Assembly (NCBI GenBank): GCA_027314665.1
Contig: DAHVAK010000258.1
Location: 1 to 48,533 of the forward strand
From: Spirochaetales bacterium
Lineage (GTDB): Bacteria > Spirochaetota > Spirochaetia > DAHUYW01
Reading direction: 5' to 3'
DNA: 48,533 bases
Positions 6,932 to 33,785 of this stretch are shown here, piece after piece. Numbering within the stretch: the first letter of the stretch is position 1; every line of letters starts with the position of its first letter. The position numbers were made by a program, and so were the translations under genes. The notes below the pieces were generated by a model. The model was not told the origin of the DNA, did not search any database, and saw only the letters and a list, made by a program, of their open reading frames with translations.

Positions 6932-6959
6932 GGAGCGCTGCCTCCCCTGACGCTGCCGC

Positions 6960-7448: not shown

Positions 7449-9478
7449 GACTCCTCCGTGTAGCGGTGGATGAGCTCCGGGGTGATCGGCAGGGCGTCGA
7501 AGTAGCGGCCCGTCGCCTGCGCCACCGCCGAGACGTAGGCCGACGGGACGACGCAGGCGGCGAGCTCCTCGACACCTCCGACCCAACCCTTCTGGGCCGC
7601 GGACAGCAGCTCGATGGCGATCGGCGGGAGCTCGTGGAGCGAGCGGCGAGAGCCGTGACAGAAGGAACACCACCACAGGGCGTGGACGATCCCGTTCTCG
7701 ATCACTCGCCGCGCGGCGCTCTCCAACAGCACCCTTCCGCTCGAAACGGTCATCCAGATCCCGCGCACCGAGGTCTCGAAGGTCACCGGGTCCACCTCAG
7801 CCTCGACCGCGGCTGCCGCCCACGACAGGCGGTCGAAGGGAAGGCCGGCGTGCTCCTCGGGATTCCAGCGGTTCGCACGCGGAAGGGTGGCGCTCTTCTT
7901 GACCTCGATGGGAAGCGCCGCACGGAAGCGCCTTCGCACGATCGTCTCGCAGGCACGCTCCACGAGCTCCCCGATGATCGTGATGTTTCGCGAGAGGGCG
8001 GACGGGCCGGAGTTGGGAACGAGGAAGGTGTCGGGGGCGTTCACGAAGATGCGTTTTGGCTCGATGCCGAGAATCCGAGCCGCGTTCTCGCTCCACGCCG
8101 AGCGCGCCTCGCCGCTTGCGGAGACTCCGGAGGTCAGGATGTAGAGGCTCCCGCTCGCCTCCAGGCGTACGACCACGGTGGCGGGCTCCTGCTCGTCGCT
8201 TCGGGTGATGAAGCCGGCCCCCTGATAGGCCGCGGCGAGCCCGATCCCCCGAAGGGGGCTCCTGCCCTCCCGAATGCTTTCGCGTCGCTTCTTCAGCATC
8301 TCGTAGGCCGCATACTTCCGGGTGAAATCGGAGAGCTCCACGGTGCGCTCGAGGAGGCCGCTCGGAGGATAGTTCGCAGGCAGGGCTCCCCCGGACAGAA
8401 GCCCGTTGCGCCGAATGAGGTTGCGCTCCTTCCAGGTGAAGGGGTCCGTCTGGGTGAGCTCGGCGATCCGCGAGGCGTGGGTTTCCGCGGCAAAGAAGCC
8501 CTGCGCGAGCCCGAGGCCCTGAAAGGCATCCATCGGGGGAACGCTCGTCATGACGAGTCGACCCCGCAGGCGGTAGGCGGTGCTCTGATAGGGGCCGGTC
8601 GCCGCGAGGAGGGCGCGCTCGAGGAGCTCCTCGCCCATCATGGGAGCCGCTCCGCAGTCGACGGAAAGATCGATATCGTGCGCGGTGGGATTCCCATCCC
8701 GGTCGAGGGCGGAGCGGATCGCTATCCGCGAGGGGGCTCGGCGTGGCTGGAGGGCCGCAGCCTCGGCGTAGGAGAGCAGCAGGCGCACGGGCCGGCGGCT
8801 CTTCCAGGCGAGCAGGGCGCACTGGGCGGCAATCATCGAAGGGAACCAGATCCGGGAATCCTTTGGGGGGCTCATCCGCGTCACCCGGACTCCCACCTGC
8901 TTGCGCGGAAGCCCGAGAACGGAGGCGACGACATTCCGCACGTGATAGGGCCATTGAGTCGGACAGTAGACCACCAGACGCTCGTCCTCGAAGGTTGCGA
9001 GAGCCCCCGGAGGGTCGCTTGCGGGGTACTCCTGGGGGCAGGTCGTGTACTCGCCTTCGACGATCTGGAAGGCGTCGTCGAAGGCGCGCTCGGGTGCGCC
9101 GAAGACGACCTCCCGCCGCTCCGCTATCTGGGATTCCGCCGGATGGACGAAGGTGAGAGGGCTGTCCGTCCGGTAGCGCACTTCGATCTGTCGGACCACC
9201 TCGGCAAGGCGCCGCTCATCGGGTCCGCAGAGGAGCATGACCGGCTCTCCTCGATAGGCGACCGCGCGTTCGGCAAAGAGGGGCAGCTTCTGGGCAAAGA
9301 GGCTCACCGCCCCCTCGCCGCTCACCTCCTCGGGAAAGAAGAGACGGATCTCTTTGGGAATCTTCGGATAGCTGATTGAGAGGATTTCGCCGCGGTCGAT
9401 CGCCGCGCGGACGACGACTCCGTGGAGCATCCCCTCCACGGTCAGATCGCCTACGAAGCTATCCCCGGGGAGCGCCAT
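7445..9478 (-). CDS. molybdopterin-binding subunit homologue with degenerate cofactor motifs (XdhA/CoxL-like)
   Basis: A 677-residue protein, shorter than the usual 750-800. Overall it follows the family: DLTVEGMLHGVVVRA at the start, YRGEPVMLLCG, DAFQGLGLAQGFFAAE in place of the AFRGFGxPQ block, SGPSALSRN, and a C-terminal ALPITPELI. The molybdopterin-binding GGGFGGKE loop is replaced by MSPPKDSRIWFPS, the GQG loop by ASGEARS, and the substrate arginine of FRGFG by Gln. It may bind a different cofactor or substrate, or be non-catalytic. It overlaps the aminotransferase gene by 20 bp at its start and the Fe-S gene by 4 bp at its end. Family certain; activity doubtful. Confidence 0.8.
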   Translation of the reverse strand: MALPGDSFVGDLTVEGMLHGVVVRAAIDRGEILSISYPKIPKEIRLFFPEEVSGEGAVSLFAQKLPLFAERAVAYRGEPVMLLCGPDERRLAEVVRQIEVRYRTDSPLTFVHPAESQIAERREVVFGAPERAFDDAFQIVEGEYTTCPQEYPASDPPGALATFEDERLVVYCPTQWPYHVRNVVASVLGLPRKQVGVRVTRMSPPKDSRIWFPSMIAAQCALLAWKSRRPVRLLLSYAEAAALQPRRAPSRIAIRSALDRDGNPTAHDIDLSVDCGAAPMMGEELLERALLAATGPYQSTAYRLRGRLVMTSVPPMDAFQGLGLAQGFFAAETHASRIAELTQTDPFTWKERNLIRRNGLLSGGALPANYPPSGLLERTVELSDFTRKYAAYEMLKKRRESIREGRSPLRGIGLAAAYQGAGFITRSDEQEPATVVVRLEASGSLYILTSGVSASGEARSAWSENAARILGIEPKRIFVNAPDTFLVPNSGPSALSRNITIIGELVERACETIVRRRFRAALPIEVKKSATLPRANRWNPEEHAGLPFDRLSWAAAAVEAEVDPVTFETSVRGIWMTVSSGRVLLESAARRVIENGIVHALWWCSFCHGSRRSLHELPPIAIELLSAAQKGWVGGVEELAACVVPSAYVSAVAQATGRYFDALPITPELIHRYTEES

Positions 9479-10724
9479 CCGACCCGCCTCGGTAGTGCCG
9501 TTCGCCGATCGATTTCACGGTGTTGATGATCCGCTCGACCTGATCGTCGGTAAGCCCCGGGTAGATCGGAATGCTGACCACGTTCTGGAACGCCCGCAGA
9601 GCGTTCGGGTAATCCTGTGGCTTGAATCCGTAGAGGTTGCGGTAGTATGGCATGAGGTGCAGGGGAATGAAATGAACGCTCGCACCGATCCCTTGCTCCA
9701 TGAGGCTCCTGATGAACTCGTCGCGATCGATGGTCAGTCTACCGGGAATGAGCCGCAGAGTAAAGAGATGCCAGGCGTGCTCATCGGAGGAAAGGGGCAG
9801 GGTGAGCCAATCGGCCTCGGCGAAGGCCGAGAGGTAGCGCTCGGCAATCGCCCGGCGCCGCTCGAGCAGGCCGCGCGCCTTCGCGAGCTGAGCCCGACCG
9901 ACGGCGGAGGCAAGATCGGTGAGGTTGTACTTGTAGCCGGCCTCAACCACCTGATACTCCCACCCCGGGCGCTTGGAGGTATAGCGATCCCAGACCTGGC
10001 GGTCTATGCCGTGCAGGCGCATGAGCGATACCCGCCGCGCTATCCTCTCATCCTCAGTCACGACCATTCCTCCCTCGCCGGTGGTGATGGTCTTGGTCGC
10101 GTAGAAGGAGTAGACCCCGGCGCTGCCGAGGGTTCCCGCGAAGTGAAGAGCGCCGTCGGCGCCCCTCGCTCGCACCGGGAAGGCGTGGGCCGCATCCTCG
10201 ACGATCGGCACCCCGTGGCGCCGGGCGGCTTCGAGGAGGGCGGCCATTGCGCAGGGAAGCCCGGCGAAGTGCACCGGGATGAGCGCGGCGATGCGGGCTT
10301 TGGCCGGGAATCGTGCGCGCCTTCGGAGGCGAAGCGCCTCCTCGACTCGCTCGGGATCGATGTTCAGGCTGGCCGGGTCGATATCCACGAAGAGGGGATG
10401 GGCTCCGAGATAGCGGGCGACCTCGGCGGTGGCGGTGAAGGTGTAGGGGGAGGTGATGACGAGATCTCCCGGACGTACCCCGACCGCCTCGAGGGAAAGG
10501 TGCAGCCCTGCGGTCGCCGAGCTTACGGCGAGGGCGTGGCGGGCACCGACGACCGCGGCAAACTCGCGCTCGAAGCTCTCCGTCACTCTTCCGGTCGTGA
10601 GCCATCCCGATCGCAAGACCTCGATGACCGCGGCCTCCTCCTCCGGTCCGATCGAAGGAAGGGCGAATGGGATTTCAGTACTCGGGCTCTTCGTCGACAT
10701 GGTTGACCGAAGGGAAGTGGGCAT
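9459..10724 (-). CDS. DegT/DnrJ/EryC1/StrS-family PLP aminotransferase
   Basis: A 421-residue sugar aminotransferase of the type that converts UDP-4-keto-6-deoxy sugars to 4-amino sugars. ALPSIGPEEEAAV and GWLTTG mark the N terminus, VEDAAHAF the PLP-ring aspartate region, and YSFYATKTITTGEGG carries the Schiff-base lysine (about Lys211). The C-terminal FIPLHLMPYYR is family-typical. The ATG at 10724 is preferred because GGAGG lies seven bases upstream. ATG 10700 gives a shorter form with no Shine-Dalgarno. The start overlaps the 4,6-dehydratase gene by 50 bp. Together the two enzymes would make a UDP-4-amino-4,6-dideoxy-N-acetylhexosamine (inference from the family pair). Confidence 0.9.
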   Translation of the reverse strand: MPTSLRSTMSTKSPSTEIPFALPSIGPEEEAAVIEVLRSGWLTTGRVTESFEREFAAVVGARHALAVSSATAGLHLSLEAVGVRPGDLVITSPYTFTATAEVARYLGAHPLFVDIDPASLNIDPERVEEALRLRRRARFPAKARIAALIPVHFAGLPCAMAALLEAARRHGVPIVEDAAHAFPVRARGADGALHFAGTLGSAGVYSFYATKTITTGEGGMVVTEDERIARRVSLMRLHGIDRQVWDRYTSKRPGWEYQVVEAGYKYNLTDLASAVGRAQLAKARGLLERRRAIAERYLSAFAEADWLTLPLSSDEHAWHLFTLRLIPGRLTIDRDEFIRSLMEQGIGASVHFIPLHLMPYYRNLYGFKPQDYPNALRAFQNVVSIPIYPGLTDDQVERIINTVKSIGERHYRGGSDGAPRG

Positions 10725-12153
10725 GGAGGATCCTCCGCAGCTCTCGGCGGTTTCGGAAGGACTGCGGGCGCTCGGGGTCGAAGAAGCACACGGCGTGCAG
10801 GGACGAGAGGAGCCCGTCAAAGGAGCCGTTGAACCGCTCCTGCCGAGGCAGGCGGTTGATGCGCGGGAAGCCGGTGGGCACCGGTCTCTCGTCGGAGTCC
10901 CAGAGGGTCTCATGGAGCTTCTCGCCGGGTCGCAATCCGACGTAGCGCACCGGTATCTCGCTTTCCGGGGCGAAGCCGAAGAAGCGGATCATCGTCTCAG
11001 CGAGCTCGCGGATGAGGATCGGCTCGCCCATGTCGAGGATGTAGAGGTCGCCTCCCTTGCCGACTCCTCCCGCCTTCAGGACGAGGGAGGAGGCCTCCGG
11101 GATGGTCATGAAGAAGCGGGAAACCTCGGGGTGCGTGATGGTGACCGGTCCCCCTTTGAGGATCTGCTTCTTGAATAGGGGCACGATGCTTCCTCGCGAG
11201 CCAAGCACGTTTCCGAAGCGCACAACCATGTAGTCGCCCCGTGGGGGACGCTTTCGCAGGACGATCTCCTCCGCGAGCATCTTCGAGGCCCCGTAGACCG
11301 AGCTCGGGCGCACTGCCTTGTCCGTGGAGATGAAGACGAAGCGCGGGGTTCCGACCTCGATTGCGGCGTCGACGAGGTTTCGGGTGCCGAAGACGTTGTT
11401 CTTGATGGCTTCCACGGGATTGTGCTCGCACATCGGGACGTGCTTGTGGGCGGCGCAGTGGAAGACCACGTCGGCGCGAAGGCGGCGCATGATGAAGCGG
11501 ACGTAGTCGCGATCCTGGAGATCGCCGAGGACGGGTACAACCGTAGCCTGCTCGCCGACCCCCTCCTCTTGGAGGAGCTTCAGCTCCTTGTCGATCTCGT
11601 AGATGCTGTTCTCGTCGTGATCGAAGAGGTAGAGACGGGCTGCTCCGCCGTGCAGGAGCTGCCGCGCGAGCTCGCTTCCGATGCTCCCGCCGGCTCCCGT
11701 TATCAGGACGCGCTTGCCCCGCAGGTAGTCCAAGCTCTCCCTGAGGTTGATCGCGACGGGGCTGCGGGCGAGCAGGTCGTCGGCGTCGAGCTCCCTCGCC
11801 TGGATGAGGTGGGCGTCGCCTTCGACGATCTGGCTCACGTCGGGGAGGATGCGGATGCGCGCGAAATCGGCGCGGGAGAGGGCGCAGTAGATCTGCTTGA
11901 GCCTCTCGCGGGAGGTGGAGGGAAGGGCGATGAGCGCCTCGGCGGCCGGGCGGGCCGCGAGGAGAGCCTCGACCCGTTCGATCGGCCCCACGACGGGTAT
12001 CCCATCGATCTGGGTTCCCATCTTGGTCGGATCGTCGTCGAGAAAGGCGACAACGCGACCGAGAATCCCCTTCTTGTTGATTTCCTGCGCAATGGCCCGC
12101 CCCGCGAATCCCGCGCCGACAATGTAGATTCCGTCACGCTTTGCCTTCTTCAT
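10675..12153 (-). CDS. nucleotide-sugar 4,6-dehydratase, soluble CapD/WbpM/FlaA1-like
   Basis: A 492-residue extended SDR enzyme that probably makes UDP-4-keto-6-deoxy-HexNAc. An N-terminal Rossmann domain (IYIVGAGFAGRAI) is followed by the catalytic one (VLITGAGGSIGSELAR, ~residue 146), then FISTDKAVRPSSVYGASK with the Tyr/Lys pair (~286/290) and LRPGEKLHE. Unlike classical WbpM or CapD, there is no multi-pass membrane region at the start, so the enzyme looks soluble. WbpM-type enzymes usually have Met at the Tyr position; here Tyr is present. The ATG at 12153 follows GGAG; an upstream in-frame extension is rejected. It overlaps the NusG-like gene by 20 bp. Confidence 0.9.
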   Translation of the reverse strand: MKKAKRDGIYIVGAGFAGRAIAQEINKKGILGRVVAFLDDDPTKMGTQIDGIPVVGPIERVEALLAARPAAEALIALPSTSRERLKQIYCALSRADFARIRILPDVSQIVEGDAHLIQARELDADDLLARSPVAINLRESLDYLRGKRVLITGAGGSIGSELARQLLHGGAARLYLFDHDENSIYEIDKELKLLQEEGVGEQATVVPVLGDLQDRDYVRFIMRRLRADVVFHCAAHKHVPMCEHNPVEAIKNNVFGTRNLVDAAIEVGTPRFVFISTDKAVRPSSVYGASKMLAEEIVLRKRPPRGDYMVVRFGNVLGSRGSIVPLFKKQILKGGPVTITHPEVSRFFMTIPEASSLVLKAGGVGKGGDLYILDMGEPILIRELAETMIRFFGFAPESEIPVRYVGLRPGEKLHETLWDSDERPVPTGFPRINRLPRQERFNGSFDGLLSSLHAVCFFDPERPQSFRNRRELRRILHAHFPSVNHVDEEPEY

Positions 12154-12736
12154 TCTTCTCCGCCGCCGAGAGGAGGTCGAATCCGAAATCGATGAGAAAC
12201 GAGTTCTCATAGAGGGAAAGGCGGACCTTGGCCCTCCCTTTTCTCTTATCGACCTTCACGATTCGTCCTTCAAGCCCTTTCAAGGGGCCGCTCGCGACGC
12301 GGACTCGCCGATTTGCATCGAGGTAGACCTTCGACCTGTCGACGATCTCTCCGAAGGAGATGAAGTGCAGGAGGAGCTCGCGGTCCTCCCCGGCCAGGGG
12401 CTGGATGTTGTGGTTGTCCTTGAGGAACTTGATGAAGCCGGAGAAGCGCTTCAGGAGACCGAAAGCCCCGGGCGAAACGCTCTCTGCCTCGTAGAAGAGG
12501 TAGCCCGGGAAGATCGGAGCCAGGACCTGCTTTCGGACCCCGCGCTTGATGATCGTCAGCCGCCGGCGCGGCCAGAGCAGGCGGCCCGTCTCCGCCTCCT
12601 GCGGTGGGCCGTGGAGTCCCCGTTCCGGCGCGAAGATCTGCGCCGAGGGCTCGCTTGCCACCTGAAAGGCCCGCTGGGTAAGCTTCAGATAGCGCTCTTC
12701 ATCTCCCGTCATCACTTGGATGACATAGTAGTTCAT
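12134..12736 (-). CDS. NusG paralogue (LoaP/UpxY/RfaH-type operon antiterminator)
   Basis: A 200-residue protein with an N-terminal NGN domain (MNYYVIQVMTGDEERYL at the start, APIFPGYLFYE in the middle) and a C-terminal KOW domain (RVRVASGPLKGLEGRI). It is not the housekeeping NusG: that gene normally sits by secE/rplK, while this one heads a polysaccharide-type operon. Such specialised paralogues (RfaH, UpxY, LoaP) bind RNA polymerase near the start of their own long operons and prevent early termination. A hairpin in the leader just before the ATG may be its RNA target or a translation control (inference). The end overlaps the next gene by 20 bp. Confidence 0.88.
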   Translation of the reverse strand: MNYYVIQVMTGDEERYLKLTQRAFQVASEPSAQIFAPERGLHGPPQEAETGRLLWPRRRLTIIKRGVRKQVLAPIFPGYLFYEAESVSPGAFGLLKRFSGFIKFLKDNHNIQPLAGEDRELLLHFISFGEIVDRSKVYLDANRRVRVASGPLKGLEGRIVKVDKRKGRAKVRLSLYENSFLIDFGFDLLSAAEKNEEGKA

Positions 12737-19645: not shown

Positions 19646-19670
19646 CCAACGGTCTCCGATCATCGGGCGT

Positions 19671-19698
19671 AGTATAGTGGAAAACGGTAAAAAATCAA
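19671..19698 (-). promoter_or_regulatory. sigma70-type promoter for the PEGA lipoprotein gene
   Basis: On the minus strand, TTGATT (19698-19693) and TATACT (19676-19671) are 16 bp apart. Transcription should start at about 19663, exactly where an ATG lies. This supports initiation at the GTG of 19645, which has its own GGAG. Confidence 0.55.
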
Positions 19699-19715
19699 CG
19701 AGTGCGACCGATAGG

Positions 19716-20264
19716 ATGGATGTGAACCCTCGACGATGCGCCGTGGCGCTCTTCGCGTCTCTCCTTGCGCTCACCCTCCCGGTCTACGCCGCCGGGCCGG
19801 AGCCGGTCCCCGACGGCTTTCGGGAGCTCCACTTGGGGATGAGCCTCGACGCCGCCAAGAAGGCGCTTCAGGCCGATACCTACTTCGACTACAAGGGCGA
19901 TCCCGACGTATCGATGCTCCAGCGCCCCGACGACAACCTCATCGAGTGCGCGGGCTTTTCCTACATCCGACGCGCCTACTTCCAGTTCCATGACAAGCTG
20001 CTCTACACCATCACCCTCGTGCTGAACCCCTCCGAGATCGATTTCTATACGATGTACACCACCCTCGTCGCCAAGTACGGACAGCCCGCCTTCCTCAATC
20101 CGCAGGAGGTGGTCTGGGAGTCGGCGGCCTACCGTCTTTCCCTTGAGCATCCCTTGAGTGTAAAGTACATCGACCGGACGATCTTCGACGCGTTGAAGGC
20201 GGCCGGCAAGATGCAGGAATCGGAGCGCGCGGTCTCGCGCGAGGAATTCCTCAAGCAGTTCTAA
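19716..20264 (+). CDS. exported protein of unknown function
   Basis: A 182-residue protein with a signal peptide (CAVALFASLLALTLPVYA, cut before AGPEP). The mature part contains FRELHLGMSLDAAKKALQAD, a helix-rich motif seen in small exported proteins that track enzyme-like repeats, then FQFHDKLLYTITLVLN and YTTLVAKYGQPAFLNP. That pattern, hydrophobic strands and a K-YG-P turn, resembles small periplasmic proteins of no known function. The ATG at 19716 has only a poor Shine-Dalgarno; GTG 19722 is an alternative. It is divergent from the PEGA gene and 17 bp before the DUF192 lipoprotein gene, likely one transcript. Confidence 0.72.
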   Translation: MDVNPRRCAVALFASLLALTLPVYAAGPEPVPDGFRELHLGMSLDAAKKALQADTYFDYKGDPDVSMLQRPDDNLIECAGFSYIRRAYFQFHDKLLYTITLVLNPSEIDFYTMYTTLVAKYGQPAFLNPQEVVWESAAYRLSLEHPLSVKYIDRTIFDALKAAGKMQESERAVSREEFLKQF

Positions 20265-24316: not shown

Positions 24317-25843
24317 ATGGGGAATGTCGTCGCGATAAACGCCTGCGGCCTCTCGCGCCATGCCTTCGCACCCCTTCCCGGGGGCGGGCACGCCTTTGCG
24401 CGCGCGCTCTCCTTCGCGGCGAGCCTTCCCGGAGCGGATCGGATCCACCTCCTTGGGGCGGCGAGCCTTCCTGCCGGCGAGCGGCCTGCGAGCGCCCGCT
24501 CCCCTTCAGGGGCGGAGCTTGAGGTGATCGGGGTCGATCGCGCGCAGTGGAGCCTGCGCGAGCTCGTCGCGGCCCTCGTGGAGATTGCCGGTCCCGAGGA
24601 CCTCTTCTACCTCTACGGCGACTGTCCCCTCTACGATCGCTCCCTTGCCGCTCGGATGTACGAGAGTCATCGGCGCTACTACGCCGACTACACCTTCGCG
24701 GATGCCTATCCCGAGGGGCTTGCCCCCGAGATTCTGAAGGGGAGCCTTGCGCGGGAGCTTCCGCGCCTCCTCACGGGGGGTGACGGGGCGATCCAGCGCG
24801 ACAGCCTCTTTGCCCTGATCCAGCGGGACATCAACGCCTTCGACATCGAAACGATCATCTCGCCGGTTGATCTTCGCCTCCTTCGGGTTCAGCTCGCCTG
24901 CGACACCCGGCGCAACTACGAGCTTACCCGGCGGTTCATGGAGGCGGGCGCGACGGAGGAGGCCGCGCTCCTGGAGACCGTGAGAAGGCGAGGCGAGCTG
25001 CTTCGTACCCTGCCGGCCTTCGTGGAGGTGCAGGTCACCGACGGGGTGACGCAGGCGGTCAGCTATTCCCCCTATCCGAAGCTCGTTCCCGACGCCCTCG
25101 AACGCCGCAACGAGATGGACCCCGAGCGCTTCCGGCGCATCGTTGAGCAGCTCGCCGCGTTCAGCGAGGATGCGACCGTGAGCCTCTCGCTGTGGGGCGA
25201 GCCTGCCCTCCATTCGCAGCTTCCGGCTCTCCTCGCCGAGCTCCACCGGCACGCGGGACTCAGCGCCCTCATCGAGACCTCGGGGGTCGGATGGAGGCAA
25301 GGGGTTCTCGAGGAGATTGCGAGATCCTCCGACAACCGCATCACCTGGATCGTCGATCTGGATGCCTCCACCCCCGAGCTCTACCGGGAGCTTCGCGGGC
25401 AGGGATGGGAAGAGGCGCATGCCACCTGCGAGCGTCTCCTTGCGCTCTTCCCCGGCAGGGTCTACGTTCAGGCGGTCAGGATGGCGTCCAACGAATCCGA
25501 CCTTGAGGCCTTCTATCAAAAGTGGAAGGAGCGAGTTCCGAACGTCATCATTCAGAAGTACGACTGGTTCTCGGGCTTCCTGCCGCAGCTGAAGGTAACC
25601 GATCTCTCGCCGATCGTGCGGCTGCCCTGCTGGCACTTGAAGCGGGACCTCGTCGTTCTCCTCGATGGGACCGTGCCGATGTGCCGGGAGGATCTTGCTC
25701 GGGAGCACCCCCTGGGGAATCTCTTCGAGGAAGAGCTCTCCGCCGTGTGGGAGCGCGGTCAGGCGCTCCACGTCAGGCATGTTGCCGAAGACTATCCCGC
25801 GCTCTGCAAGGCCTGCGATGAGTACTATACCTTCAACTTCTAA
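24317..25843 (+). CDS. spiro-SPASM protein (degenerate radical-SAM domain with intact SPASM domain)
   Basis: A 508-residue protein. Residues ~1-215 look like a nucleotidyltransferase (DLFYLYGDCPLYDRSL). A radical-SAM-like barrel starts near 235 (FVEVQVTDGVTQAVSYSPYP, LSLWGEPALHSQLPALL). The C-terminal SPASM domain retains its cysteines (LPCWH, VPMCRED, CKACDEYY). The CxxxCxxC that would hold the catalytic 4Fe-4S cluster reads V-TQA-V-SY-S, so all three cysteines are gone. I recall this as the spirochaete-restricted spiro-SPASM family. It overlaps the GT2-like gene by 26 bp, placing it in the glycan cluster. A radical reaction is unlikely; a sugar-nucleotide or binding role is possible. Confidence 0.85.
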   Translation: MGNVVAINACGLSRHAFAPLPGGGHAFARALSFAASLPGADRIHLLGAASLPAGERPASARSPSGAELEVIGVDRAQWSLRELVAALVEIAGPEDLFYLYGDCPLYDRSLAARMYESHRRYYADYTFADAYPEGLAPEILKGSLARELPRLLTGGDGAIQRDSLFALIQRDINAFDIETIISPVDLRLLRVQLACDTRRNYELTRRFMEAGATEEAALLETVRRRGELLRTLPAFVEVQVTDGVTQAVSYSPYPKLVPDALERRNEMDPERFRRIVEQLAAFSEDATVSLSLWGEPALHSQLPALLAELHRHAGLSALIETSGVGWRQGVLEEIARSSDNRITWIVDLDASTPELYRELRGQGWEEAHATCERLLALFPGRVYVQAVRMASNESDLEAFYQKWKERVPNVIIQKYDWFSGFLPQLKVTDLSPIVRLPCWHLKRDLVVLLDGTVPMCREDLAREHPLGNLFEEELSAVWERGQALHVRHVAEDYPALCKACDEYYTFNF

Positions 25844-26783
25844 GCGGCTCACCGTTCCCTACACGGTCGTCGGCGGGGGGCGCTCGGGGCGCGCCCGTCG
25901 CTTTCCGACTCCCCTCACCGTGCTGCTCCTCAACCGCGGAGGACGGTTCTTCAAGCACGCCTTTTTTGAGGAGCTTGCCCGCCTGGGTGCCGAGGAGATC
26001 ATCTCCATCGAGGGTCCCACCGCCTCCTACGAGATCGAAAACCTCTCCCGGGACTTTCCGAGCATCAAGTTCATGGTCCTTCACGAGGCAACCTCGCGGG
26101 GAGAGCAGATCAACATGGGGGTGGAGGAGGCGAAGGGGGAGCTCGTATTTGTCGTGTGGAACAACATGAAGCTCCCCTCATCCTCGATTGCGGCGCGCAT
26201 CCTCGAGCGGATCCGGGAGAGCGATTGTCTGTGCTCAGTTCCCCTCATGCAGAACGCTCGGTTTGAGACCATGCCAACCATCATGGCTCCCGCCTTCTAC
26301 AACAAGCTCCTCAAGGTTCTGGCCCTCCAGCCCTCCTCGGATGGGATGATGAGCCTCTTTCCCTTCGACTACTGCGGGGTCTACAACAAGGAGCGCTTCA
26401 TCCTCGTGGGAGGCTACGACTCGACCCTCACAAATCCCTACTGGCAGAAGATGGACTTCGGCTTCCGAAGCTACATGTGGGGCGAGAAGATCCTCTGCAG
26501 CACCGCCCTCCACGTGAGCTACGCCGGCGAGCTTCCCTCCGAGGACTCCACCCCGAACGATGACTACCGGCTGTTCTATCTCAAGAACCTCTCCGTACGC
26601 TTCACCGGCGACTCGGGGACTCTTCCGCGCTCGCGTCTGTTTCCCTATTTCTTCCGCGCAGGGGGCTACCTGAACGCCCTGAGGAGCTTCCGGCAGGCGC
26701 GTGCCTGGGTCGAGGTCAATCGCTTTCGCTTCAAACAGGATGCGCGCAGCGTCACCGAGCTGTGGGAGGTGCCCGAGGTATGA
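25818..26783 (+). CDS. GT2-like (GT-A fold) glycosyltransferase-related protein
   Basis: A 321-residue protein reading like a family-2 glycosyltransferase. LTVLLLNRGGRFFKHAFFEEL is strand one plus helix (shown here in part), EEIISIEG follows, and SRGEQINMGVEEAKGELVFVVWNNMKLP occupies the place of the usual nucleotide-binding aspartates. VGGYDSTL, YWQKMDFGFRSYMWG and DDYRLFYLKNL match the acceptor half. The DxD motif is replaced by WNNM, so it may be metal-independent or inactive. The ATG at 25818 lies inside the end of the spiro-SPASM gene, and its stop overlaps the fusion gene by four bases. Glycan assembly is inferred. Confidence 0.7.
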   Translation: MSTIPSTSKRLTVPYTVVGGGRSGRARRFPTPLTVLLLNRGGRFFKHAFFEELARLGAEEIISIEGPTASYEIENLSRDFPSIKFMVLHEATSRGEQINMGVEEAKGELVFVVWNNMKLPSSSIAARILERIRESDCLCSVPLMQNARFETMPTIMAPAFYNKLLKVLALQPSSDGMMSLFPFDYCGVYNKERFILVGGYDSTLTNPYWQKMDFGFRSYMWGEKILCSTALHVSYAGELPSEDSTPNDDYRLFYLKNLSVRFTGDSGTLPRSRLFPYFFRAGGYLNALRSFRQARAWVEVNRFRFKQDARSVTELWEVPEV

Positions 26784-29407
26784 GCCGAAAGCCTGCCCCC
26801 CGAGCGACCGAGGCGAGCGAAGGATCGCCTGACCTCGGCGGTCTCGCCGGGAGCCTCGGGATTTTCCTCCAGGCGCGTCTCGATTCGACCCGCCTTCCCC
26901 GCAAGGTGCTTCTTCCCCTCGCGGACCGCACGGTGATCGAGCACGCGATGATCGCGCTGCGGCGGGTGCGGGCCGACCTCTACCTTCTTCTCACTGACGA
27001 GTCGAGCCTCGCGGAGCTCGAGCCCCATGCGCGCGCCTGCGGCTTTCTCGCCTTTGCAGGCCCCAAGGAGGACGTCCTCGCCCGCTTCGCCCTTGCCGCC
27101 GCCCGCTATCCGGTCGAGCGCATCGTCCGGGCCACCGCCGACAATCCGCTCGTCTCGAGCGAGCTGCTCGAGCTCCTGCTGCCGCTTCACGCGGCGGCGC
27201 AGGCGGACTACAGCGCCTTCGAAGGGGCGCCGATCGGTACCGGGGTCGAAATCGTCGAGCGCTCGGCGCTCCTTGCGGCGGCCGAGCGAGCGCGCGATCG
27301 CTACGAACGAGAGCACGTCTGTCCCTATCTCTACCGGCGGGCGGGGGAGTATCGGATCAATCGCCCGGCGGCGCCGGGACCCTTCCGACTTCCCGACGCC
27401 GCGGTGACCCTGGACACCGAGGCCGACTATCGCTTTCTCGTTGGGCTCTTTGAGGGGCTCTACCGCGGGGTCCCGATCGATACCCGCCGGCTCGTCGCGT
27501 GGCTGTCCGAGAGGAAGGATCCCGCCGGCCCGCGCGAGGGTGGGGAGCCTCCCCGCGCGGAGGGGGAGCTTGCAGGCTCGGCCGATGCGCCGGTCGAGAC
27601 CCGACGAACGGGCGCCTCCGCGCCCCGGCAGCGTAGGGTGCTGCTCGTCCCTTCGATCCGACCCGGCGACGGGATCGGTCACCTCAAGCGCTGCATCGAG
27701 CTTGCTCGCTCCCTTTCGGGCGCCTCGATCCTCATGCCCGAGCAGCGCGAATGGCAGGAGCGGGCGCAGGAGGTCTTCTCGAGCGCCGCAATGCCGCTTC
27801 CCGACGAGAAGCTGTGCTTTGCGATCGAAGCGGGGGGCCCCTGGGACTGCATCGTCCTCGACCGCAGGGCCACGACCCGCGAAGAGTATGCCGCCTTCGA
27901 GGCGCGCGCCCCGGTGGTCGGGATCGACGAGGGCGGAAGCGCGCGAGAGTGGATCCCCTATCTGATCGACACCCTGCCTCTTCCCTCCGAGGTGAGCAAG
28001 GCAAACATCTTCTCGCCGGCCTTTCTCTCGCTTCCCCGACGCAAGCGCCTTCCCGGGGATGCGACCGGGAAGATCCTCATCGCCTTCGGCGGCGAGGATC
28101 CGGAGGGGCTCTCCGCCAAGGTCGCCGCGACCCTGGTCGGTGAGGAGCTCTTCACTCCATCCGAGATCACGGTTGCGCGCGGGCCCCTCTCCCGCCCTTT
28201 CTCGCTGCCTTCCGGCGTCGCGCTCCTCCCGGCTTCCCCCGATCTCAAGGAGGAGCTTCATCGCTTCGACATCGTCTTTACCTCCTTCGGCCTCACCGCC
28301 TACGAGGCAGTCAACGCCGGGGTGGCGGCAATCCTCGTCAATCCGACTCCCTACCATCGACGTTTGGCTCGGATCGCCGGTTTCCCCGAGGCGGGTCTTT
28401 CGGAGCTCGATCTGCGCAGCCTCAAGCGCCTCCTTGCCGACCGGCGGACGCTCCATGAGCAGTGCGCACGGATCGCAGGCGAGGCCCAGCGCTCGATCGC
28501 GGCCCATCTCGAGGGGCTCGATTTCTCCGGCTTCGCCGGATGTCCCGTGTGCGCCTCCTGCACCAATCCGGCCATAGAGCGCATGGAGGACCGAACCTTC
28601 TTTCGCTGCGCCACCTGCAACATGGTGTACGAGGCCGACTTCGCTCGGGATCGCACCAGCTACGGGGCGAGCTATTTCGGGGAGGAGTACCGCAGGCAGT
28701 ACGGCAAGACCTACCTCGAAGATTTCGAGAACATCCGCACGATGGGAGCATTGCGCCTGGAAAAGATACGCGGGGTTCACGGTCCCTTCGAGGGCGAGCG
28801 TCTCATCGATGTCGGGTGCGCCTACGGCCCCTTCCTGGCGGCGGCGCGGGATGCGGGACTCGCCCCGCATGGGGTTGATATCTCCCCGGAGGCCGCGCGC
28901 TACGTCCGCGAGTCACTCAAGCTTCCGTGCGCCTCCGTGAGCTTCGAGGAGCTCGACGTGGCGGAGAGCTTCGGCTTCGCCCGAGCCGATGTGCTCACCA
29001 TGTGGTACGTCATCGAGCACTTCCCCCGCTTGGGCGAGGTCCTCGCGAAGGTCAACAGGCTCCTTCGCGTCGGCGGGGTGTTCGCCTTCTCGACGCCGAA
29101 CCTTTCGGGGGTAAGCGGCTACAGCGATCTCGCTCGCTTCCTGGCCGCGAGCCCTCGGGATCACTTCACGCTTTGGGATCCCAAGATCGCGCGAAGCGTC
29201 CTTCGCCGCTTCGGTTTCCGCGTCGCGGCGGTCAACATCACGGGCCATCACCCCGAGCGCTTTCCCCTGCCCGGTGCGGCAAGTGGGTGGCGCTACCGCT
29301 TTCTTGAGCAGTACAGCCGGGCGGCCGGACTCGGGGACACCTTCGAAATCTACGCGGTGAAGGAGCGAGAGGCCGGCGGGGCAGCCTCCGCGAAGGAGCC
29401 ATCGTGA
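26780..29407 (+). CDS. three-domain fusion: SpsF-like cytidylyltransferase, PseG-like domain, SAM methyltransferase
   Basis: An 875-residue fusion. Residues ~25-250 are SpsF/NeuA-like: QARLDSTRLPRKVLLPL, GPKEDVLARF, VRATADNPLV, TLDTEADYRF. Residues ~290-575 resemble PseG, a UDP-sugar hydrolase with GT-B fold: RPGDGIGHLKRC, CIVLDRR, ILIAFGGEDPEG and TSFGLTAYEAVNAGV. Residues ~585-875 begin with a zinc ribbon (CPVC ... CATC), then a class I methyltransferase (LIDVGCAYGPFLAAA near 677, MWYVIEHFPRLGEVL). Separately these domains activate nonulosonic-type sugars, release UDP and methylate. The ATGA overlaps the previous stop. A linker of ~40 residues rich in Gly/Glu/Arg separates domains one and two. 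The combined order of reactions is unknown. Confidence 0.85.
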   Translation: MSRKPAPRATEASEGSPDLGGLAGSLGIFLQARLDSTRLPRKVLLPLADRTVIEHAMIALRRVRADLYLLLTDESSLAELEPHARACGFLAFAGPKEDVLARFALAAARYPVERIVRATADNPLVSSELLELLLPLHAAAQADYSAFEGAPIGTGVEIVERSALLAAAERARDRYEREHVCPYLYRRAGEYRINRPAAPGPFRLPDAAVTLDTEADYRFLVGLFEGLYRGVPIDTRRLVAWLSERKDPAGPREGGEPPRAEGELAGSADAPVETRRTGASAPRQRRVLLVPSIRPGDGIGHLKRCIELARSLSGASILMPEQREWQERAQEVFSSAAMPLPDEKLCFAIEAGGPWDCIVLDRRATTREEYAAFEARAPVVGIDEGGSAREWIPYLIDTLPLPSEVSKANIFSPAFLSLPRRKRLPGDATGKILIAFGGEDPEGLSAKVAATLVGEELFTPSEITVARGPLSRPFSLPSGVALLPASPDLKEELHRFDIVFTSFGLTAYEAVNAGVAAILVNPTPYHRRLARIAGFPEAGLSELDLRSLKRLLADRRTLHEQCARIAGEAQRSIAAHLEGLDFSGFAGCPVCASCTNPAIERMEDRTFFRCATCNMVYEADFARDRTSYGASYFGEEYRRQYGKTYLEDFENIRTMGALRLEKIRGVHGPFEGERLIDVGCAYGPFLAAARDAGLAPHGVDISPEAARYVRESLKLPCASVSFEELDVAESFGFARADVLTMWYVIEHFPRLGEVLAKVNRLLRVGGVFAFSTPNLSGVSGYSDLARFLAASPRDHFTLWDPKIARSVLRRFGFRVAAVNITGHHPERFPLPGAASGWRYRFLEQYSRAAGLGDTFEIYAVKEREAGGAASAKEPS

Positions 29408-31104
29408 GCGCGCCTGCGGTTCGCTCGAAGGGGAAGGCCCCCCGCTCGATTCTCATCCTCGGCGGGGGGGTGATGCAGCTTCCGGCGATCCGCCTTGCGA
29501 AGGAGAGGGGATGGCGGGTGGAGGTCGCCGACGGCAACCCTCAGGCGATCGGAGCGCAGGAGGCTCACCGCTTCTTGCCCATCGATCTGAAGGACAGGGA
29601 GGCAATCGAGCGCGCGGCTCGGGAGCTCGCCGCAGATGAGGGGCTCGACGGCGTCTTCACCGCCGGGACCGATTTCTCGGCCACGGTGGCATGGGTTGCC
29701 GAGAGGCTCGCTCTTCCGGGCCTTCCCTTCGCGGTGGCCGCACGCGCCACGGACAAGTCGCTCATGCGCGCGGCATTCCGCGCGGCCGGGGTGCCCTCGC
29801 CCGACTTCGTGGCGCTGGGCGAGGGCGAGGATGCGGTCCGCGCCGCCTCCGCGCTGCGCTATCCCCTGGTCGTGAAGCCGGTCGACAACATGGGCGCCCG
29901 CGGCATCCGCCGCATCGACCGCCCCTCTGAGCTTCCGGAGGCGGTCGAGCTTGCCCGATCGCACTCCCGATCGCGAAGGGTCATCCTCGAGGAGTTCGTG
30001 CCGGGGCCCGAGTTCAGCCTCGACGCCATCGTCGATCGCGGGCGAATCACCATAACCGGGATTGCCGACCGGATCATCCGTTTTTCCCCTTACTTCGTGG
30101 AGACCGGCCACACGATCCCGACTTCCGCCGACCGGAGCTCCGTCGAGCGGGTATGCGCGGTCTTCAAAGCCGGGATCCGAGCGCTCGGCATCGAAAACGG
30201 CGCGGCGAAGGGGGACATCAAGCTCTCTCCGGCGGGGCCGGTCGTCGGAGAGATCGCCGCGCGCCTGTCCGGCGGCTACATGTCGGGATGGACCTACCCC
30301 TACGCAAGCGGAAGCCTCGTCACCGGCGCCGCCCTCAACCTCGCGGTGGGGCTCCCGGCGGGCGACCTCTCCCCGCGCTGGGCGATGTTCTGCGCCGAGC
30401 GGGCCTTCATCTCGATCCCGGGGCAGGTCGAGCGGGTGATCGGCACCGAGGAGGCCGAGCGCGCCCCCTTCGTGAAGAAGCTCTTCCTTCGCGTCGGCCC
30501 CGGGGATCGGGTGGTCTTTCCGACGAACAACGTCGAAAAGTGCGGCAACCTGATCTCACAGGCGCCGACGCGAAGGCAGGCCGTCGAGTCCGCCGAGGCG
30601 GCGGCGGCCCGCATCGCGATCCTCCTGAAACCCTCGGCAGCCGAGACCGCCTCCTTTCTCTTCGCCGGCGACGGGGGTTGGCCGCCGCCGGCCTACGATC
30701 TCTCGGGCGCGGCGCAGGCAAGCGATCCCCGCGCGCTCGATGTCGCCACCCGGCTTGCCGCGCTGCCGCTCTATCTGTCGGGAGGAGGGCGTGCGGGGAT
30801 CGGGGTGCTCCCGCTTGCCGGGATCGAAGAGCTCGACGTGCGCGACTGGCAGGGGCGCGGCCCGCGCGAGGCACTCGCCAGAATCTACGAGCTCGGCCCG
30901 CTCGAGCCTGCCGGATCGCGGGTCTCGGGGGAGTACCATCTCCTGCTCGGGCGACTCTTCTGGGACGCCTTCCTGCGGGCAAGTATTCAGGGCGCCGTCT
31001 GGCTCGCGGAGAGCGTGGCGGAGCTGCTCGATGGACCCGACTCGGCGCAGTCGCTCGAAGACCGTATGGCCGCCCGGCTTCGGGAGTGGGGGGTGCGGGA
31101 GTGA
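29404..31104 (+). CDS. ATP-grasp ligase-like protein with long C-terminal extension
   Basis: A 566-residue protein. The N-terminal pre-ATP-grasp Rossmann region reads ILILGGGVMQLPAIRLAKE, then TDKSLMRAAFRAAGVPSP, YPLVVKPVDNMGARGI (ATP lysine) and VILEEFVPGPEFSLDAIV mark the ATP-grasp core (~residues 110-330). KGDIKLSPAGPVVGEIAAR carries the metal ligands. ATP-grasp enzymes join a carboxylate to an amine or thiol. About 200 residues follow the core with no family I recognise (from ~FLFAGDGGWPPPAYD on). GTG 29404 overlaps the preceding TGA as GTGA. It may attach an amino acid or peptide to an amino sugar (inference). Alternatives are PurK- or carbamoyl-phosphate-like enzymes. Confidence 0.8.
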   Translation: MSAPAVRSKGKAPRSILILGGGVMQLPAIRLAKERGWRVEVADGNPQAIGAQEAHRFLPIDLKDREAIERAARELAADEGLDGVFTAGTDFSATVAWVAERLALPGLPFAVAARATDKSLMRAAFRAAGVPSPDFVALGEGEDAVRAASALRYPLVVKPVDNMGARGIRRIDRPSELPEAVELARSHSRSRRVILEEFVPGPEFSLDAIVDRGRITITGIADRIIRFSPYFVETGHTIPTSADRSSVERVCAVFKAGIRALGIENGAAKGDIKLSPAGPVVGEIAARLSGGYMSGWTYPYASGSLVTGAALNLAVGLPAGDLSPRWAMFCAERAFISIPGQVERVIGTEEAERAPFVKKLFLRVGPGDRVVFPTNNVEKCGNLISQAPTRRQAVESAEAAAARIAILLKPSAAETASFLFAGDGGWPPPAYDLSGAAQASDPRALDVATRLAALPLYLSGGGRAGIGVLPLAGIEELDVRDWQGRGPREALARIYELGPLEPAGSRVSGEYHLLLGRLFWDAFLRASIQGAVWLAESVAELLDGPDSAQSLEDRMAARLREWGVRE

Positions 31105-32222
31105 GGGTCGCGCGGAGAAGCCTTTTCATTCTTTTCGGGCTGCTCCTTCTCGCGGCGGGAAGGCTTTTCGCCGACGTGGACTTGAGCGCGCTCCTCGCCG
31201 CCTCCCGGAGCACGCTCGAGTGGGAGCCCGCCCTCGGTCTGGGGGTGATCTCCAACGGTCAGAACCTTATCGTCTTCAAGCCGGGGATGGACTGGGTGCT
31301 CCTCAACTATCGCGAGAAGATTCCGACCGGCGAGATCAGGCGGGGGGCAAACGGCGCGATCCTGTTTGCCGATCCTGCGGCGAAAGGGATCGAGGAAGCC
31401 CTCGCACGCCAGCCCGACCGCTCTCCCTCGCTTTCCGACTCCGGCCAGGCGATCGCCGTCGGACGCTCGGCGCCCTCCTCGCGCAAGCCCTCGACGGGCA
31501 AGCACCTCCTTTCCCGGATCGGCGCGGTCGTCATCGACCCGGGTCACGGGGGGATCGATCCGGGGACCAACCATTGGGAGACCATCGGCGGCAAGAGGGT
31601 CGATGTCGTGGAGAAGAACATCACCCTGAAGGTCGGGCTCGAGCTCTACAAGGATCTCACGAAGGGGCTGCCCGACGTCCGCATCGTTCTGACCCGCACC
31701 AACGACACCTACGTGAGCCTCGAGCAGCGCACCGAGATCGCCAACCGCGTTCCTCTTGCCCCCGACGAGGCCATGATCTTCGTTTCCATCCATGCGAATG
31801 CATCCTTCGACCCCAAGGCGAACGGCTACGAGGTTTGGTACCTTCCGCCGACCTACCAGCGCAGCGTCCTCGATCCCAACACTCTTCCCGAGCGGGCGAA
31901 GGATCTCTACCCGATCCTGAACTCGATGCGGGAGGAGGAGTACACGATCGAGAGCGTGCTGCTTGGCAAGAAGATCCTCGCGGGAATCCATGGCGAGGTG
32001 GGCCAAGCGATGATCGACCGTGGGTTGAAGGAGCAGTCGTGGTTTGTGGTGCGCAACGCCAAGATGCCCGCGGTGCTCATTGAGCTGGGTTTCGTGACCA
32101 ATCCGCAGGAGGCGAGGCTCCTCCTCCGCGACGAGCACTTGAAGAAGATGGCCGCGGGTATCTATAATGGCGTCCGTGATTTCATTTCCTTCTTCGACAG
32201 CACCGGCGGCTTCACGGAGTAG
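31101..32222 (+). CDS. N-acetylmuramoyl-L-alanine amidase (Amidase_3, AmiC type)
   Basis: A 373-residue exported zinc amidase that cuts the bond between muramic acid and the peptide stem of peptidoglycan. The signal peptide is VRVARRSLFILFGLLLLAAGR-like, ending LFA before DVDLS. The catalytic domain (~145-370) has AVVIDPGHGGIDPGT (zinc His), VVEKNITLKV (zinc Glu), FVSIHANAS (zinc His) and VLIELGFVTN (catalytic Glu). An N-terminal AMIN-like or substrate domain of ~110 residues precedes it. GTG 31101 overlaps the previous stop as GTGA. It is probably involved in cell separation or in opening the wall for periplasmic flagella; the second is inference. Confidence 0.93.
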   Translation: MRVARRSLFILFGLLLLAAGRLFADVDLSALLAASRSTLEWEPALGLGVISNGQNLIVFKPGMDWVLLNYREKIPTGEIRRGANGAILFADPAAKGIEEALARQPDRSPSLSDSGQAIAVGRSAPSSRKPSTGKHLLSRIGAVVIDPGHGGIDPGTNHWETIGGKRVDVVEKNITLKVGLELYKDLTKGLPDVRIVLTRTNDTYVSLEQRTEIANRVPLAPDEAMIFVSIHANASFDPKANGYEVWYLPPTYQRSVLDPNTLPERAKDLYPILNSMREEEYTIESVLLGKKILAGIHGEVGQAMIDRGLKEQSWFVVRNAKMPAVLIELGFVTNPQEARLLLRDEHLKKMAAGIYNGVRDFISFFDSTGGFTE

Positions 32223-32225
32223 CGT

Positions 32226-32720
32226 TTGATCTCCGTGAGGAGCCTCGTCGACCGCAATCGAGCGGCTGCCGTGTGGGGGGGCGCGCTTCTCGCCGTCCTA
32301 CTGCTTTCGCTCGTGGTGTTTCTGTTCGTCGGCAGCAGGCAGACCGAGGTGGTTCTCTTCTTCCCGAACTACGCAAATCACCGCCTCTCCGGCGAGGAGC
32401 GCTTCGTGCCCCGGCATGCTGCCTTGAGCCAGGGGATCGAAACGGCGGTCAACGAGCTCATCCTCGGGCCGGAGCAGCTTCGCCATGATCGGGCCCTCGC
32501 CCGGGAAACGAGGGTGCGGGCCCTCTTCGCGAAGGGTCACACCGCCTTCATCGATCTGTCCGCCGGCATCCTTTTCCCCGCCGAGAGCGTTTCGGTGAGC
32601 TTCGAGGAGTCCCTCCAAGCGATTCGACGTACGGTGCTATTCAATTTTCCTTCCATAAAACACGTGGTCATTACGATCGAGGGAGAGGAGCCCCAATCGG
32701 AAGTTTCTGCTAATAATTAA
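32226..32720 (+). CDS. membrane-anchored GerMN-domain protein
   Basis: A 164-residue protein with one N-terminal membrane helix (AAVWGGALLAVLLLSLVVFL) and an extracytoplasmic GerMN domain (VVLFFPNYANHRL ... ETAVNELILGPE ... AFIDLSAGILF ... LQAIRRTVLFNFPSIK). GerMN occurs in spore proteins of Bacilli but also widely in non-sporulating bacteria beside amidases, so it does not imply spores. It probably assists the amidase in envelope remodelling (inference). The start is TTG 32226 with GGAG seven bases upstream; GTG 32235 is an alternative. It is 3 bp after the amidase gene. Its end coincides with the -35 region of the candidate flaA promoter. Confidence 0.85.
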   Translation: MISVRSLVDRNRAAAVWGGALLAVLLLSLVVFLFVGSRQTEVVLFFPNYANHRLSGEERFVPRHAALSQGIETAVNELILGPEQLRHDRALARETRVRALFAKGHTAFIDLSAGILFPAESVSVSFEESLQAIRRTVLFNFPSIKHVVITIEGEEPQSEVSANN

Positions 32721-32738: not shown

Positions 32739-32777
32739 TTCGAATACGATACTTTATTGGACTGGAAGGAGCAGCGG

Positions 32778-33785
32778 ATGAAACGGTTCGTCATTCTTCT
32801 TTCACTAATGCTCTTCGGAGTGAGCCTGTCGGTGTTTGCGGACGTGTCGACACTGATAGACTTCGCGAAGCTGGCCGCCGACACCCCCGATGGACAGAAT
32901 GCAGCGACGCTCATCGACTTTTCGGACAAGGCGGGGGCGAGCTTTACGCCCGCCGAGAAGGCGCAGATGAAGACCTCCCTCACTTTGAAGAACTGGCTCG
33001 TTCAGCTCAACTCCTCGGCGCGGACCATCACCAATGAGACCCTCTCCTATACGGCATCGGCGCAGGTGAGCACCTCCGCTCAGAGGTTTCCGGGCCAGAC
33101 GGTCCTCGGCATCCGCGTTCACTTCCCCGACGATCCCTACAACGCCTATGCGGAGATTCTCCCGCCCTTCGACATTCCGGCCTATGCGCCGAAGACCACC
33201 CTGCAGCCTGACGGCACCCTCAAGACGGACACGGCCGACATCTCCGGCTCGAAGTTTGTGGGCTACGGCATCGTGAAGAATGTCGGGGCGCTCAAATCGC
33301 TCAGCGCGTGGGTCTACGGCTCGAACGATCCGAACGGCTTTGGAGTTATCCTGCAGAACCAGAACCATGAGGATCAGACCATCTTCCTGAAGAGCCTCGA
33401 CTTCGACGGTTGGCAGGAGCTCACCTGGGACAATCCCAACTACATCTCCGATGTGCGCAACCGCACCCTCGAGCGCATGCCGCTCTACCCGCAGTCGACC
33501 CCCTATGTCAAGCTCGTCGGACTCATCATCTACAAGGACGGCCAACAGCCGGGCGGGGACATCATCACCTACGTTCACGACATCTCCATCGTCTACGACA
33601 AGGCGGTCCTCAATCCGATCCGCGACATCAACGACGAGGCGGTGTGGGGAATCCTCCGCGCTCGCGAGGAATCGCGGCGCAACGCCGAGTTCAAGCGCCT
33701 TGGCAACCTTCAGGTCCTCCGCTATCTCGAGGAGCAGAGGATGGCCACCGAGGCGGCAGGGACTCAGCCGCCTGCGGGCAAGTAG
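32778..33785 (+). CDS. flaA: flagellar filament outer-layer (sheath) protein FlaA
   Basis: A 335-residue exported protein of the spirochaete FlaA family, which coats the FlaB core of periplasmic flagella. The signal peptide MKRFVILLSLMLFGVSLSVFA ends in VFA before DVSTLIDFAKL. The mature part has the FlaA features: VLGIRVHFPDDPYNAYAEI, GYGIVKNVGALKSLSAWVYG, FDGWQELTWDNPNYISDVRN and a helical C terminus. The ATG at 32778 has AAGGAG seven bases upstream; an in-frame TTG at 32757 is rejected. It is followed by a strong terminator. Presence of FlaA fixes the phylum. Confidence 0.95.
   Translation: MKRFVILLSLMLFGVSLSVFADVSTLIDFAKLAADTPDGQNAATLIDFSDKAGASFTPAEKAQMKTSLTLKNWLVQLNSSARTITNETLSYTASAQVSTSAQRFPGQTVLGIRVHFPDDPYNAYAEILPPFDIPAYAPKTTLQPDGTLKTDTADISGSKFVGYGIVKNVGALKSLSAWVYGSNDPNGFGVILQNQNHEDQTIFLKSLDFDGWQELTWDNPNYISDVRNRTLERMPLYPQSTPYVKLVGLIIYKDGQQPGGDIITYVHDISIVYDKAVLNPIRDINDEAVWGILRAREESRRNAEFKRLGNLQVLRYLEEQRMATEAAGTQPPAGK

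Follow-up and report, generated by a model that had tools for sequence, protein, structure and literature searches.

The window analysed here is the whole 48,533-nucleotide contig DAHVAK010000258.1 (C46 among our own handles: C for contigs, G for genomes, L for loci, f for families) of a 299-contig, 3.6-Mb spirochaete metagenome-assembled genome (MAG) with 91% completeness and 6.4% contamination. It carries four overlapping plus-strand genes, A to D, most of which probably belong to a pathway that makes a nonulosonic acid (NulO) for the flagellum. Open reading frame (ORF) calls and family matches confirm an earlier note, which had described the four genes as overlapping and running into amidase, GerMN and flaA genes. 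Gene A (24317..25843) encodes a spiro-SPASM protein with an SpsF-like nucleotidyltransferase-fold N-domain and a radical S-adenosylmethionine (SAM)/SPASM C-domain (TIGR04321, AlphaFold model). Gene B (25818..26783) encodes a glycosyltransferase-like protein of GT-A fold, for which the structure model gives GT27 as the closest solved fold. Gene C (26762..29407) is a fusion of three domains, C1, C2 and C3, and gene D (29404..31104) encodes an ATP-grasp amide ligase of the L-amino-acid-ligase type with a C-terminal extension specific to the organism's class. A and B overlap by 26 bp and C and D by 4 bp; B and C overlap by 22 bp, or by 4 bp with a start of C at the ATG at 26780. The start of B was placed by its conserved MSTIP N-terminus. 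Downstream, also on the plus strand, follow an N-acetylmuramoyl-L-alanine amidase gene, E (31101..32222; PF01520, 154 bits), a gene for a GerMN-domain protein, F (32226..32720; PF10646, 38 bits), and flaA for the flagellar outer-layer (sheath) protein (32757..33785; PF04620, 234 bits); cheA comes next. No structured RNA was found in the locus at gathering thresholds.

To assess conservation of this order, 80 independent loci were retrieved through D alone and counts were taken over those with enough contig. The amidase gene follows D in 72/72 loci and flaA in 64/64, while A lies upstream of D in 51 of 58 and B in 60 of 67. Because this synteny is kept across 80 other loci, we take the arrangement to be selected and not due to chance. 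Every one of the 64 loci with a complete set of C domains has C2 and C3 fused. The window's fusion of all three domains is less common (3/64) and also occurs in Treponema, T. pallidum included. Across the phylum C2 is conserved beside C1, and in one genome (G010) D lies near C2-C3. Three Treponema MAG loci (L182, L187 and L191, at around 10-11.6 kb in each) keep D-amidase-flaA with no adjoining A-B-C.

C1 (26762..27541) is a predicted CMP-nonulosonate synthetase, an SpsF-type cytidylyltransferase. It matches PF02348 at 89 bits against 22.6, has the ARxxSxRLPxK motif in the form ARLDSTRLPRK, and finds the Leptospira cytidylyltransferase 6oew with a phmmer E value of 2e-19. C2 (27617..28561) is a candidate UDP-sugar hydrolase of the SpsG/PseG kind with a GxGHLKR motif. 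C3 (28562..29407), with a Cys-rich segment ahead of it, is a predicted SAM-dependent methyltransferase (Methyltransf_23, PF13489, 66 bits). Gene D has ATP-grasp_4 and LAL_C2 matches, and its nearest solved ligases are 3vot and BacD. D homologues from outside the class run to about 750 amino acids and end in an FMN-dependent alpha-hydroxyacid dehydrogenase domain (PF01070). In the three such homologues examined, this domain scores 208-218 bits in two (L136:8413-10659 and L139:7961-10228) and 61 bits in a Brachyspira-like one (L134:8170-10341). Judged from domain composition, the fusion fits a hydroxyacid substrate for D.

The earlier note had treated the four genes as a possible pathway and had listed PseB, PseC, PseF and PseI as missing, overlooking enzymes of the PseB and PseC type in the window; a PseI/NeuB synthase, too, is present in the genome. 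A self-contained four-gene pathway is rejected, as a dehydratase/aminotransferase pair, NeuB and Maf proteins are encoded outside the cluster, the pair within the window itself. The pair lies 12 kb upstream of the cluster, on the opposite (minus) strand. The dehydratase (10675..12210) is of the PglF/Cap5D/SpsM UDP-sugar 4,6-dehydratase type (PF02719, 366 bits), and its best NCBIfam family is PseB, at 188 bits below the cutoff of 407.75. The aminotransferase (9459..10913, true start probably near 10680, the match beginning at residue 81) is of the PseC/SpsC type, with PseC (TIGR03588) as its best family at 353 bits, again below the cutoff of 423.5. The same two genes stand in the same order in T. 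pallidum (dehydratase L129:6264-7880, aminotransferase L129:7885-9123). Because a same-genus genome (G159) has the dehydratase about 13 kb from spiro-SPASM on a single contig, as in the window, this upstream stretch is not chimeric. Contig C83 of the window's genome encodes a NeuB/PseI synthase (PF03102, 215 bits; SAF domain, 35 bits), and three Maf/MptE-like proteins (PF01973) are encoded on contigs C122, C136 and C281.

Some neighbours of these genes are worth recording. Directly upstream of the dehydratase-aminotransferase pair lies a gene for a NusG/KOW-domain paralogue (12134-12736, minus strand), which may act on that operon as an antiterminator of the RfaH/LoaP kind. Downstream of the pair, molybdopterin xanthine-dehydrogenase-like genes occur both in the window (6071-9478, minus strand) and in T. 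pallidum (L129:9051-12592). In the window's genome and in T. pallidum alike, a penicillin-binding-protein-like gene has a Maf-like gene after it (L279:7119-10905, L278:6828-10856).

Because all sampled spirochaete genomes encode flagellin (149/149), flagellin is uninformative as a co-occurrence marker at the level of the phylum, where spiro-SPASM was found in 144 genomes and NeuB and D in 143 each; the class level was used instead. None of the four Borreliaceae in the phylum set, a label inferred from genome structure and gene content, has A, NeuB or D, and all four retain flagellin. Among 258 genomes of the class, 163 have both flagellin and A, 53 have neither, 42 have flagellin without A, and none has A without flagellin. 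All Borreliaceae sampled account for 32 of the 42, and most of the remaining 10 are incomplete MAGs. The earlier note had looked to clusters in aflagellate relatives as the observation that would speak against it, and none of the 53 flagellin-less genomes carries spiro-SPASM. Fisher's test for the association gives p of about 4e-29, a value that overstates independence, losses being clustered by clade. Two families hold both states (f54, g93 against g125; f52, G156 and G207 against G314), and therefore the genes and flagellin were lost together more than once. PF01973 proteins show the same pattern, with 48/48 flagellated genomes positive for the gene set having them and 0/7 Borreliaceae and 0/6 flagellin-less genomes. 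The 1.14-Mb genome of T. pallidum (G056, identified by a TroA that matches the solved protein) keeps A-B-C, one NeuB, D, a single long dehydratase with an aminotransferase, and four Maf-like proteins.

Published work, as far as its titles go, agrees with flagellin as the carrier. B. burgdorferi flagellin is not glycosylated according to the title of Sterba 2008 (in PMC6236881), and the title of Wyss 1998 (cited in PMC13144727) has T. pallidum flagellins glycosylated and the sheath proteins not. The target is thus probably FlaB and probably not FlaA, which we disfavour on the strength of the latter title. Glycan density has been described on L. biflexa FlaB1 at Ser115, Thr137, Ser148, Thr167, Thr182 and Ser187 (PMC13144727). 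Ser or Thr stands at positions 115 and 167 in 17/17 gene-set-positive flagellins of the class and in 7/7 from elsewhere, compared with 0% and 20% in Borrelia (n=10). Positions 137 and 148 do not discriminate Borrelia, and other Ser/Thr columns differ there too, so that the loss at 115 and 167 is suggestive only. The proposal of flagellar glycosylation with a pseudaminic-type sugar, as the earlier note had it, is strongly supported by the missing spiro-SPASM in flagellin-less genomes and by the reportedly unglycosylated flagellin of the gene-less Borreliaceae; FlaA, whose mass the note also proposed to measure, is probably not a target.

NulO clusters of many other bacteria serve lipopolysaccharide (LPS) or capsule, a link between Leptospira NulO and surface lipoproteins has been reported (PMC3438082), and FlaA itself, by the Wyss title, is unglycosylated. 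All this would suit a sugar that decorates envelope polysaccharide or lipoproteins, with the linkage to flaA incidental. We regard this as highly improbable given that A and Maf proteins are confined to genomes with flagellin in the counts above, that Maf proteins are flagellin-specific where studied, and that the gene set was lost in Borrelia together with glycan-bearing FlaB residues. In addition, T. pallidum is known to lack LPS and still retains the gene set.

The chemistry can be compared with that of a spirochaete flagellin. The FlaB glycan of T. denticola is reportedly a Pse-configured nonulosonic acid, mono-N-acetylated and carrying a 2-methoxy-4,5,6-trihydroxyhexanoyl group on N7. We computed a residue mass of 450.185 Da for that structure and of 436.169 Da for the form without the methyl group, the former being consistent with the reported 450.2 Da. 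Synthesis of such a glycan would call for a hydroxyacid amide ligase and an O-methyltransferase beyond the dehydratase, aminotransferase, hydrolase, synthase, CMP-transferase and transferase, with no PseH. D and C3 may fill the two unusual steps, substrate assignments which we infer from sequence. Indeed, PseH (TIGR03585) was over cutoff in none of 26 genomes, and T. pallidum had no match at all. A NulO with N-acyl and O-methyl groups, as in the reported structure, fits the gene complement of the window step by step. The 450.2-Da glycan (Kurniyati 2017, as cited in PMC9481697) is on FlaB and, in the account given by the citing article, essential for filament assembly. The earlier note had thought the product possibly undescribed, whereas its sugar class matches the NulO glycan reported on this protein.

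Taken together, our results make it probable that the cluster encodes middle and late enzymes of a dispersed spirochaete CMP-nonulosonic-acid pathway that O-glycosylates FlaB, a Maf-dependent variant in which acylation is by an ATP-grasp enzyme. In this pathway the dehydratase (10675-12210) and aminotransferase (9459-10913) would convert UDP-N-acetylglucosamine to a UDP-4-amino sugar. D would join a hydroxyacid to the sugar amine at the expense of ATP, in place of the acetyl-CoA enzyme PseH of H. pylori and C. jejuni, and C3 would O-methylate the acyl group. C2 would then remove UDP, NeuB (contig C83) would add phosphoenolpyruvate to give the nine-carbon sugar, C1 would form the CMP-sugar, and Maf-type proteins would transfer it to Ser/Thr of FlaB. 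Substrates, the order of steps and the likeness of the product to the T. denticola 450-Da glycan are put forward here on the basis of gene content, folds, synteny and distribution. The genes occur in nearly all flagellated spirochaetes, and the pathway, probably general to them except for Borreliaceae, very probably produces a modified sialic-acid-like sugar and places it on the flagellum. More tentatively, and with somewhat less than even confidence, we suggest that throughout this group an ATP-grasp ligase and not an acyl-CoA acetyltransferase installs a hydroxyacid, that in many members of the phylum the acid is handled by the fused FMN alpha-hydroxyacid dehydrogenase, that methylation is by the hydrolase-fused methyltransferase, and that spiro-SPASM is a dedicated component with an optional, lineage-specific radical-SAM modification. 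As a separate observation, a KDPG-aldolase-like gene (L111:16509-17141) and the NeuB gene are about 6 kb apart in T. pallidum, and 3-deoxyhexonates could, speculatively, feed the hydroxyacyl group.

Several points weigh against this proposal. The PseG-like call for C2 is weak by sequence, at 20.7 bits against TIGR03590 and far under the cutoff of 153.55, and rests on the GxGHxxR motif and the fusion context. NeuB falls below the equivalog cutoffs of both PseI and NnaB; because NeuB and the PseB-like and PseC-like enzymes are all under such cutoffs, any assignment of the sugar's stereochemistry is tentative. The chemical argument depends on the structure reported for the T. denticola glycan. 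Losses of flagella are phylogenetically clustered, though two families show sister contrasts, and the Borreliaceae are one lineage whose contrast counts once. In T. pallidum and the T. denticola-like genomes, D and A-B-C are not neighbours. Low-scoring GNATs with weak PseH similarity occur in the window's genome and in T. denticola-like genomes, so that the replacement of PseH is tentative.

The last two points, together with the resemblance of D to L-amino-acid ligases, would also suit a different role for D. It might ligate amino acids for another product, such as a cell-wall or osmolyte peptide, and be co-inherited with flagella, the N7 acyl group coming from a GNAT acetyltransferase. We find this rather unlikely, as D is found in very nearly the same genomes as NeuB and A, adjoins C in most members of the class, lies near C2-C3 in the genome noted above, and is fused outside the class to an alpha-hydroxyacid dehydrogenase, as expected with a hydroxyacid substrate; T. 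pallidum, where D is separated, has zero PseH-like matches. Acylation of the NulO by D therefore remains our preferred assignment.

The proposed pathway resembles known systems. All of the enzyme types SpsM, SpsC, SpsG, SpsE and SpsF of the B. subtilis sps legionaminic acid pathway (PMC7439481) are found here. Unlike in B. subtilis, the slot of the SpsD acetyltransferase is apparently taken by the ATP-grasp ligase, SpsF, SpsG and a methyltransferase are fused, the genes are dispersed, and the linkage is to flagella and not to the spore crust. Flagellin glycosylation with pseudaminic or legionaminic acid in Campylobacter, Aeromonas and Clostridium (PMC13317340) shares the NulO, Maf and the dependence on flagellin, and in Clostridium methyltransferases stand beside pseF (PMC13317340). 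In contrast to these systems, spirochaetes add spiro-SPASM and the ATP-grasp ligase, have no PseH over cutoff and have no flagellar glycosylation island. We found no open-access description of the biosynthetic genes of the T. denticola flagellin glycan. The present set offers a concrete, phylum-wide list of candidate genes for the flagellar sugar, one that T. pallidum keeps in a reduced genome and for which Borrelia is a natural negative control. A further prediction is an enzymatic logic that would be new, the ATP-dependent ligation of a hydroxyacid onto a nucleotide amino sugar.

Gene A matches TIGR04321 over its full length (543 bits, cutoff 250, residues 5-508), and its model has a pLDDT of 93.6. 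The N-domain has the fold of SpsF-type cytidylyltransferase 6oew, IspD and CMP-KDO synthetases, and, in contrast to C1, does not carry the ARxxSxRLPxK motif. For the C-domain, the closest solved folds are those of BtrN and DesII, radical-SAM enzymes acting on aminocyclitols and amino sugars. Unlike these, A of the window has the additional nucleotidyltransferase-fold domain and lacks the radical-SAM cysteines: CxxxCxxC reads VTQAVSYS (V, V and S at codons 244, 248 and 251), with its flanks preserved. Radical chemistry by A in this organism is accordingly rejected, the Cys ligands being absent. Of 40 close relatives, 36 keep the motif and only the nearest (L150) shares the V/V/S form; the replacement is a recent lineage-specific loss. 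The motif has also been lost from the A proteins of T. pallidum and of T. denticola-like and Brachyspira-like genomes. The SPASM cysteines, on the other hand, are kept in the window (438, 456, 497 and 500; PF13186, 35 bits), number four in 40/40 relatives and are nearly invariant. The pattern of motif loss indicates that A is required wherever the pathway occurs, but that its radical chemistry is dispensable and was lost several times. On the simplest reading, A serves as an accessory or scaffold, with tailoring as an optional extra; A would be a universal accessory of the pathway whose radical-SAM chemistry is optional and lost in the window's organism. No paper turned up when the literature was searched for 'spiro-SPASM'. 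The present analysis gives this family, named only for its occurrence, a likely pathway assignment.

Gene B had been counted by the earlier note among the genes that might build the glycan. It has no Pfam match, and a profile search against PDB sequences found no glycosyltransferase. Its structure model (pLDDT 89.7) gives polypeptide GalNAc-transferases (GT27) as all of the best 50 PDB matches (Foldseek E 4.5e-13, TMq about 0.53-0.68), which share the GT-A fold with B. Unlike B, at 11-15% identity to them, they have a lectin domain and a DxH motif, which in B is replaced by WN(D/N), WNN in the window, where D100 is N. In Borrelia (L130:9104-12680) the order B-amidase-GerMN-like-flaA-cheA is kept and A, C, D, NeuB and Maf are lacking; this block is a relic of the ancestral cluster. 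Because Borrelia keeps B without NulO genes, B belongs functionally with the flaA operon. Its fold, and its constant place in the conserved cluster with A before it and C after it, would be expected of a flagellin glycosyltransferase or NulO-pathway enzyme, but we consider such a function distinctly unlikely in view of the Borrelia block, the unusual metal motif with N in place of D100, and the persistence of NulO genes outside the class where B is missing or only weakly similar. B as a core NulO enzyme is disfavoured by its retention in Borrelia, and it is probably not one; with its GT27 fold and its tie to the flaA operon, it would have a separate role.

Elsewhere in the window, a gene at 17897-19774 on the minus strand encodes an envelope protein with PEGA and FlgD_ig domains.

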